Below, one piece after another: positions 51,951 through 54,034 of a DNA stretch of 54,034 nucleotides. This stretch comes from an uncultured Candidatus Saccharibacteria bacterium. Its GTDB lineage: Bacteria; Patescibacteriota; Saccharimonadia; Saccharimonadales; Saccharimonadaceae. The position numbers were made by a program, and so were the translations under genes. Every line of letters begins with the position of its first letter. Position 1 is the first letter of the stretch. Where the stretch lies: assembly GCA_945872155.1 (NCBI GenBank), contig CAMBYK010000001.1, positions 1 to 54,034 of the forward strand, written 5' to 3'. The notes beneath the pieces were generated by a model. It saw nothing but the letters and a program-made list of their open reading frames with translations. It did not search any database and was not told the origin of the DNA.

Positions 51951-52005
51951 GCGACGAATTACTTTGCGTTGCAATCAAAACCTCTTCTTAAAATTATTAT
52001 ACTTC

Positions 52006-52195
52006 TCTCACTCTCCAACCCTCTGGCCTCCCTTAGCAGGACTTGTTCATTGCTATTTTTACAACATACGTCTGGAATAATCAGTTTTAGTCGCTACGCT
52101 TGCTGATTATTCACAGGTAAGTTGTAAAAATAGCATTCACAAATCTGGTCTAAATCTCATTATGCTAAGTGAGGCCAGAGGGTTGAAGAGTAAGA
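52006..52195. repeat. Large nested palindrome (190 bp) downstream of the FISUMP gene
   Basis: Three nested inverted repeats share one axis. The outer arms are 52006-52038 and 52163-52195 (33 bp, 3-4 mismatches, with 15 perfect pairs CAACCCTCTGGCCTC). The middle arms are TGCTATTTTTACAAC 52051-52065 with 52121-52135 (15 bp perfect). The inner arms are GAATAATCAG 52075-52084 with 52103-52112 (10 bp perfect). Unpaired segments lie between them. No coding region is apparent. It fills most of the 440-bp gap between rpsJ and the surface protein gene. It may be a mobile palindromic element, a recombination site or a long hairpin RNA. Confidence 0.85.
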
Positions 52196-52280
52196 ATAGA
52201 TAATCTCCGTATATGTCTGCCAGCATAACTCCTTCCTGCTCAAAGAGTTCAAGGCAACGGGATGCTAATGGATGGGAACG

Positions 52281-54034
52281 CTAGCGAGCTACACAGCGAG
52301 CAGACAATCCGTAGCCCTTGCCGTTGTTGTACTGGGGGTTGATGCTGCCGCTATTGAAGAACAAATAGTAAGCGCTGTTGCTGCTGAGGACAGTACCAGA
52401 CCATAGCCAGCCGTAATTGCCGCGGCTGTACCAGCTGCCACTGTAGTAGTAGACGCCGGCACGGATAAAATTGAGAGGGGGTTTAATCATTTTACTAGCA
52501 CTAATAGCGCTACTAGTGTTAATAGCTAAACCATACTTAGTATTAAGCAAGTTATAGTATGAGCTATTACCTGTATTTCTTGGCAATGTCCATCCTTTGG
52601 GGCAGATGGAGTCTGCGGCTTCTCCAGAATTGGCAGAGATTAGGCTAGCTCCGTTAGCATCTCTAGCTCCAGCCGTAACCATTGGCCAATCATAGTAGTT
52701 GCCAGCAGATTCTAGTGGAGTGCCAGTAGATGCATGTGTAGCGTCTCCTGCTATGGTGCCAGTAGCGTTGAGGTTTTGTTCTTTATAGTATTCGTATCCC
52801 GGTGCTGGTTTTAGCCAGTGCGGGCCATCACTACCATTTTCCGCCCAGCTTTGCCCAGCGGTCGATGGGCCTGCTGGAGCGGTGAAGGTACGGCCAGCAG
52901 TTAGGTCTGTATCTGCATCTGTCAGGACTTGGTTTGCAGTGGGTGAGAAAGCTAGGTTCTGCGTCATCCAGCAGTTGCCGTCTGCAAGTTTTCTCACCAC
53001 GTAGGTTTTGTTGTCTCTGGTATCAGTAAGAGTGGTTTCTGGGACTTTGTTTTTGTCGGTAGTTCTAGTAGTAGAAGTAGTAGAGACTATGTTAGAGTAA
53101 TCGGCATTATGAGTTGCTCCGTTTATATAGGCGTTTGGGGTAGGAGTGGCAGCACAAATGGCTGGAGTCATTTCCTGCATTTTAGTGATACTCCAGAGGT
53201 CTTTGGGTTGTTCTTTGGCTACACAGCGAGCAGAAAATCCATCGCCCTTGTAGAAGTTCTGGAGGTAGATGATGCCGCTGTTGAAGACCAAACCGTAAGC
53301 GTCGTCGCTGCTGAAGACAGTGCTAGACCACAGTAAACCGTAGTTGCCACGGTTGCTCCAGCTGCCATTATAGCTGTAGTAGCCGGCACGGATAAAATTA
53401 AGGGGAGATTTAATCATTCTAGCATGGCCAGCAGAACTGCCCGGTAAATTGTATTTAGTAACTATTAAGTTATAGTATGAGCTGCTACCTGTGTTTCTTG
53501 GCAGAGTCCAGCCTTTAGGACAAATAGAATCTGCGGCTTCACCGGAACTGGCAGAGATTAGGCTAGCTCCACTGGTATCTCTAGCTCCTGCAGTAACCAT
53601 CGGCCAGTCGTAGTGGTTGCCAGCAGATTCTAGTGGAGTGCCGGTAGAAGAAGGTATAGCATCTTCTTCTATAGTGCCGTCTGGATTGAGGTTTTGTTCT
53701 TTGTAGTATTCATAGCCTGGTTCTGGTTTCAGCCAGTGGGGACCGCCACTACCGTTATACGCCCAGGTTTGTCCAGTAGTAGATGGGCCTGGCGCAGTAA
53801 AGGTTCTACCGCCGTTCATATCAGTATCAGCACTTGTTAATACTTGTCCTGCATTTGGTGAGAAAGCTAGATTCTGCACCATCCAACAATTGCCGTCTGC
53901 AAGTTTCCGGACGACATAGGTTTTGTTGTCTCTGGTGTCGGTAAGGGTAGCTTCTGGGACCTTGTTTTTGTCTGTAGTGTGGAAGGTGGTGGTTTCGGAG
54001 ACTATATTAGAGTAAGTAGAATCTGGGGTTGCTC
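52281..54034 (-). CDS. Surface protein with tandem FISUMP (Fib_succ_major) domains, 5' end outside window
   Basis: The reading frame is open to the right edge, so the N-terminus is missing; about 583 codons are visible. Two tandem repeats of about 265 aa each have the FISUMP pattern: LTDTRDNKTYVVRKLADGNC then WM.QNLAFSP, SGEAADSICPKGWTLPRNTG, and a C-terminal LWS.TV..S..AY...FNSG ending SARCVA. A linker with MQEMTPAICAATPTPN separates them. A 61-aa middle segment differs at only 5 sites between repeats, while the last 58 residues differ at 21 sites plus one indel. The protein ends directly after the second repeat without a sorting signal. A surface adhesin or ligand-binding role is likely but unproven. 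Confidence 0.85.
   Translation of the reverse strand, partial: ATPDSTYSNIVSETTTFHTTDKNKVPEATLTDTRDNKTYVVRKLADGNCWMVQNLAFSPNAGQVLTSADTDMNGGRTFTAPGPSTTGQTWAYNGSGGPHWLKPEPGYEYYKEQNLNPDGTIEEDAIPSSTGTPLESAGNHYDWPMVTAGARDTSGASLISASSGEAADSICPKGWTLPRNTGSSSYYNLIVTKYNLPGSSAGHARMIKSPLNFIRAGYYSYNGSWSNRGNYGLLWSSTVFSSDDAYGLVFNSGIIYLQNFYKGDGFSARCVAKEQPKDLWSITKMQEMTPAICAATPTPNAYINGATHNADYSNIVSTTSTTRTTDKNKVPETTLTDTRDNKTYVVRKLADGNCWMTQNLAFSPTANQVLTDADTDLTAGRTFTAPAGPSTAGQSWAENGSDGPHWLKPAPGYEYYKEQNLNATGTIAGDATHASTGTPLESAGNYYDWPMVTAGARDANGASLISANSGEAADSICPKGWTLPRNTGNSSYYNLLNTKYGLAINTSSAISASKMIKPPLNFIRAGVYYYSGSWYSRGNYGWLWSGTVLSSNSAYYLFFNSGSINPQYNNGKGYGLSARCVAR

Follow-up and report, generated by a model that had tools for sequence, protein, structure and literature searches.

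Two FISUMP tracts in a Saccharibacteria genome as probable remote variable regions of a diversity-generating retroelement

The two FISUMP domains of a tandem-domain protein from a Candidatus Saccharibacteria genome each end in a tract of clustered residue changes, and both tracts are, with good confidence, variable regions (VRs) of a diversity-generating retroelement (DGR) that serves several dispersed FISUMP genes in trans and whose cassette is missing from the draft assembly. The stretch of DNA analysed, here called the window, is the entire contig C1 of 54,034 bp; the source assembly is a 606 kb draft in 43 contigs, 96% complete. Relatives recovered by protein search are mostly Candidatus Saccharibacteria, many of them from animal guts. 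Membership of the gene in the FISUMP (Fib_succ_major) family is indicated by scores above the curated cut-offs of two profiles, 85.2 bits for TIGR02145 (cut-off 41.65) and 48.5 for PF09603 (cut-off 33.9). The features of the gene are as follows.

52281..54032, minus strand: gene with two tandem FISUMP domains, a 583-aa open frame, 5′ end truncated by the contig end at 54034
53218..53387, minus strand: VR1, putative internal variable region closing the first FISUMP domain, with 83% identity to the template inferred from all copies
53218..53240, minus strand: conserved end of VR1, candidate initiation-of-homing site, GGATTTTCTGCTCGCTGTGTAGC, near-identical across copies
52281..52460, minus strand: VR2, putative terminal variable region reaching the stop codon, 89% identical to the inferred template
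52288..52310, minus strand: conserved end of VR2, candidate initiation-of-homing site, GGATTGTCTGCTCGCTGTGTAGC, 1 base different from the VR1 end
52284..53030, minus strand: second FISUMP domain as modelled (AlphaFold2 pLDDT 86, pTM 0.87)

In the proposed mechanism, a template repeat rich in AAC and AAT codons, located next to the genes for a DGR reverse transcriptase and an Avd-like accessory protein, would be transcribed, and the reverse transcriptase would copy the template RNA, erring at adenines. The cDNA would then replace the homologous stretch of a FISUMP gene, and residues of the lectin-like domain would be scrambled with third bases and framework left fixed.

Pattern of variation in the tracts

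The tract of the first repeat (C1a, 53218-53387) and that of the second (C1b, 52281-52460) were compared in a codon alignment. The 21 residue differences and one codon indel counted between them in the first-pass annotation were obtained again on recounting, as was the behavior of the third bases: both copies have a final C in 14 of the 21 changed codons and a final T in 2. The contrast drawn there with a preceding segment differing at only 5 of 61 residues was overstated: the segment exists, but it is the least-diverged 61-column window upstream. The full set of 176 aligned upstream codons has 36 residue differences and 55 silent ones. Taking p-values as indicative only, since alignment columns are not independent, codons change no faster in the tract than upstream (p = 0.37), and the ratio of nonsynonymous to silent changes is 20:7 in the tract versus 36:55 upstream (p = 0.002). 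The real contrast between the two copies is thus in the kind of change, the rate being no higher in the tract.

A DNA search of the same genome recovered seven tracts: contigs C1 and C17 have two each, C32 and C36 a single one, and the end of C3 part of another; weaker FISUMP genes are present on C4 and C24. FISUMP copies lie at or near the ends of six contigs (C1, C3, C17, C24, C32, and C36). Inspection by eye of the translated neighbors suggests housekeeping genes: rpsJ (C1), ndk (C17), an aminopeptidase (C32), and parA/parB (C36). The six full tracts have a common fixed framework within which NNC and NNT codons vary, and some copies differ in length by one codon. Over all 15 pairs of copies, silent changes per codon fall from 0.231 upstream to 0.086 in the tract, while nonsynonymous ones climb from 0.220 to 0.364. 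Of the nonsynonymous codons, 49% also change the third base upstream and 22% do so in the tract. The copies show what is expected of a DGR variable region, nonsynonymous variation limited to a short stretch at the domain end with third bases and framework conserved. The pair C1b and C17a is particularly clear. In 36 upstream codons the two copies differ by 2 residues and 1 silent codon, and in the 62 codons of the tract by 25 residues and 3 silent codons (p = 1e-4 against upstream). A 23-base conserved end is found in all copies of the tract and is a candidate initiation-of-homing site.

Against the inferred template, C1a shows 18 mismatches at template adenines and 13 elsewhere, and C1b shows 17 and 3. 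The other terminal copies carry 5 (C17b), 7 (C36), and 8 (C32) non-adenine differences and the other internal copy, C17a, carries 11, those of the internal copies lying partly in the linker after the tract; because the inferred template is a consensus of the genome's own copies, these counts are relative only. The terminal tracts look recently rewritten and the internal ones seem to carry more ordinary drift. A terminal VR that is rewritten more often than the internal VR would fit the non-adenine counts.

A palindromic, MITE-like element of ∼190 bp lies immediately downstream of the FISUMP gene (window 51995-52200). A 98% copy lies at C36:377-565, and partial copies open contigs C4, C20, and C29 and recur on C6 and C7; the element likewise seems to break the assembly.

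Templates and remote targets in the genus

A DGR-type reverse transcriptase was detected in 97 of 174 draft genomes of the genus, often two to four per genome of less than 1 Mb; in the other 77 the genus profile found none. In the cassettes of these relatives, the reverse transcriptase is accompanied by a target gene, a template repeat, and an accessory gene of ∼290 codons. Across 35 cassettes, 693 of 757 mismatches between template and target fall at a template adenine, and the one target examined in detail, that of the G034 cassette, is a FISUMP gene. FISUMP domains occur in 169 of the 174 genomes, often 15–20 or more per genome of less than 1 Mb, and many of the genomes that bear them lack a detected reverse transcriptase.

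The position of the variable codons links these templates to the window. The six full copies of the window genome were aligned with templates found independently in the same genus. Among codons at which the genome's own copies encode at least three residues, 18 of 21 are AAY in most of the relatives' templates, compared with 2 of 38 other codons (p = 3e-10); the variable positions coincide with template adenines. Since the relatives' templates were found through adenine bias against the targets of other genomes, this test is independent of the template inferred by hand. Part of the agreement could arise through structure alone, with the variable positions of the lectin fold coinciding in part with template adenines.

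Targets remote from their template are visible in two relatives. In G110, a template on its contig C24 has one target in cis and a second on C19, which is 86% identical to the template; adenine is the site of 19 of its 23 mismatches. G141 carries two templates, one on each of two contigs, and both have targets near the end of a further contig, C10. No reverse transcriptase was present in the stretches examined around the remote targets of either genome. This arrangement is, by analogy, the layout proposed for the window. The proposal of the first-pass annotation, that both tracts are DGR variable regions possibly served in trans, is supported by the match of the varying codons to the adenine codons of relatives' templates, by the position of those templates next to DGR reverse transcriptases, and by the remote targets of G110 and G141.

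Two lines of evidence were discarded. Tract matches accompany a reverse transcriptase in 51 of 53 other genomes, but the association no longer serves as main evidence, since the templates themselves account for many of the DNA matches. Genomes without the enzyme were rejected as negative controls for the codon pattern because three of them, G172, G138, and G004, display it too. In G172, which has no detected reverse transcriptase, silent changes per codon amount to 0.006 in the tract versus 0.204 upstream; judged by its codons, the tract signature of this genome is cleaner than that of the window genome.

Several arrangements in the genus were recorded in passing. In all 35 cassettes the template is antisense to the reverse transcriptase (loci L133-L152 and L212-L231), at positions ranging from 39 bases inside the 3′ end of the enzyme gene to 184 bases past it. 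At the end of the G141 contig C10, four VRs, two per template, are packed within 1.4 kb (L235:4971-6354). In G024 (L046:1054-2523), an Asn-rich, template-like FISUMP stretch directly precedes a divergent reverse transcriptase and is read in the same open frame. In G022 (L237:6828-8339) and G115 (L239:153-1189), adenine-biased repeat pairs lie away from any reverse transcriptase, although each genome has one elsewhere. Among the G172 copies (L262, L263, and L265), that at L263 is almost purely AAY and resembles an unmutated target.

The missing cassette and competing explanations

The search for a template repeat, a DGR reverse transcriptase, and Avd that had been suggested as a check found none of them in the draft assembly. 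PF00078 and the genus profile detected no DGR reverse transcriptase in the 43 contigs, no accessory gene was found there, and the inferred template, used as a DNA query against its own genome at E ≤ 10, returned only the seven coding copies. A complete cassette of reverse transcriptase, template, accessory gene, and target is thus absent from the assembly, and an exact search for the 20-base tract end in viral contigs was likewise negative. This absence from a 96% complete assembly counts against the DGR reading, as do the 11–13 non-adenine differences of the internal tracts and the one-codon length differences among some copies. The missing template and enzyme do not refute it, since in this draft genome contigs repeatedly terminate in these very repeats. 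The cassette was most likely left unbinned or lost in assembly, by analogy with relatives, with real loss or supply from a mobile element as less likely alternatives. Loss in assembly is the simplest reading because cassettes sit alone on small contigs elsewhere in the genus: isolated cassettes occupy contigs of 3,649, 4,112, and 4,855 bp in G118 and G112, and 40 of 147 reverse transcriptases of the genus lie <3 kb from a contig start. We infer that the genome has, or recently had, a cassette that is missing from the draft.

If the loss were real, the tracts would be relics, diversified by a DGR that later disappeared from the lineage, with the diversity inherited and perhaps reshuffled among FISUMP paralogues. 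The lack of any cassette part in the assembly, the 77 genomes of the genus in which the profile finds no enzyme, and the ordinary drift in the internal copies agree with such a history. It nevertheless appears unlikely. The terminal copy in the window differs from the inferred template at only three non-adenine positions, third positions are half as diverged in the tract as upstream, and the tendency of cassettes to break assemblies offers another cause for their absence. The near lack of silent tract change in G172, where no enzyme was detected, is also not what a long-lost DGR would leave.

Explanations that dispense with the retroelement fare much worse. If the lineage has no DGR and selection simply favored change at the binding face of a lectin fold, this would agree with the near-universal presence of FISUMP genes in the genus, many of them in genomes without a detected reverse transcriptase, and C-rich third positions are common upstream in the gene as well. 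Under such ordinary evolution, silent change should stay level rather than fall in the tract; moreover, the codons that vary are those that read AAY in the templates of relatives, and C1b and C17a are nearly identical upstream yet strongly different in the tract, which makes this account very improbable. Equally hard to credit is gene conversion among paralogous FISUMP cassettes as the sole source of the mosaic. Tandem and dispersed copies are available for it, C1b and C17a have upstream sequence in common, and C32 and C36 have the 3′ part of the tract in common. Conversion shifts existing variants, however, and alone creates no single-codon NNY variation at AAY positions; most variants also have no donor in the genome, where the search with the inferred template found seven copies only. 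It may act in addition to a trans-acting DGR, which remains the preferred reading. A broader and rather doubtful proposal is that some lineages of the genus, including that of the window, keep and use large families of DGR-made FISUMP VRs without a reverse transcriptase of their own, through supply in trans by mobile elements or through recombination among dispersed and tandem copies.

Predicted fold and relation to known systems

The second FISUMP domain was modelled with AlphaFold2 from 36 sequences. A Foldseek search with the model gave no significant match. In structural alignments the top matches were C-type-lectin-like domains with Z up to 6.5; values below 8 are supportive only. Legionella Lcl is among these matches, with Z 6.5 and 2.4 Å over 96 residues, as is the phage DGR protein Mtd, with Z 5.3–5.5 and 4.1–4.4 Å over 127–131 residues. 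The model thus points to a lectin-fold target domain, although Foldseek on its own was not significant. Several variable residues alternate along predicted strands (193/195/197, 222/224/226, and 229/231), as expected if they line one exposed face. A role as a variable surface binder is suggested by the predicted fold and by the membrane-segment-like N terminus of one relative.

FISUMP is already known as a DGR target in the human microbiome, where the C-terminal Fib_succ_major domain is likewise the diversified part (PMC4159848). The window differs from that system in that both of its tandem domains have a tract, copies are dispersed, and no cassette adjoins them. Remote variable proteins are known from cyanobacterial DGRs (PMC7517822), including Trichodesmium (PMC8867640), and there too paralogous lectin-fold targets lie distant from the reverse transcriptase and are recognised by template homology. 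Template and enzyme have been identified in the cyanobacterial genomes themselves, whereas the draft of the window genome lacks both; in addition, one of the window tracts is internal rather than 3′-terminal. A large survey found Patescibacteria/CPR, the superphylum of the window genome, to be enriched in DGRs with lectin-fold targets, mostly without a recognisable domain, and states that remote targets are undetectable by it (PMC8144416); the window, in contrast, belongs to host-associated Saccharibacteria with FISUMP targets. The tracts are therefore best regarded as remote VRs of a known type of system; the genus to which they belong has a large FISUMP and DGR repertoire. The internal VR, the many FISUMP copies in tiny genomes, and the uniformly antisense template combined with an Avd fusion may be unusual.

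Even with the mutator unassembled, remote DGR targets are recognisable from their own sequences and from the templates of relatives, which is the very case said to escape the survey (PMC8144416). In this genus of very small gut bacteria, DGR reverse transcriptases occur in more than half of the genomes, and FISUMP genes, frequently in large numbers, in nearly all. It offers a good system for studying the role of targeted hypermutation of surface binders in a reduced, probably host-dependent bacterium.

The DGR of Bordetella phage BPP-1 (Mtd, Avd; structures 1yu1-4, 4dwl, and 8ub7) also has a lectin-like target, and its Avd is a four-helix bundle resembling that of the relatives' accessory protein. 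The cassettes of the relatives differ from it in their antisense template just 3′ of the reverse transcriptase, inverted patterns being known as a class (PMC6642488), and in the fusion of the Avd-like bundle to an extra N-terminal part. A sequence profile of the accessory protein gave nothing convincing against solved structures. Its C-terminal four-helix bundle aligns structurally with Avd and DGR ribonucleoprotein structures (Z 13–14, 1.9–2.0 Å over 106–110 residues) and with 2gsc (Z 16.0). In the protein encoded upstream of the reverse transcriptase at L069:5479-6357 and in its relatives, this bundle is fused to an N-terminal α/β part for which no family match was found, and some members also contain a helix-turn-helix.
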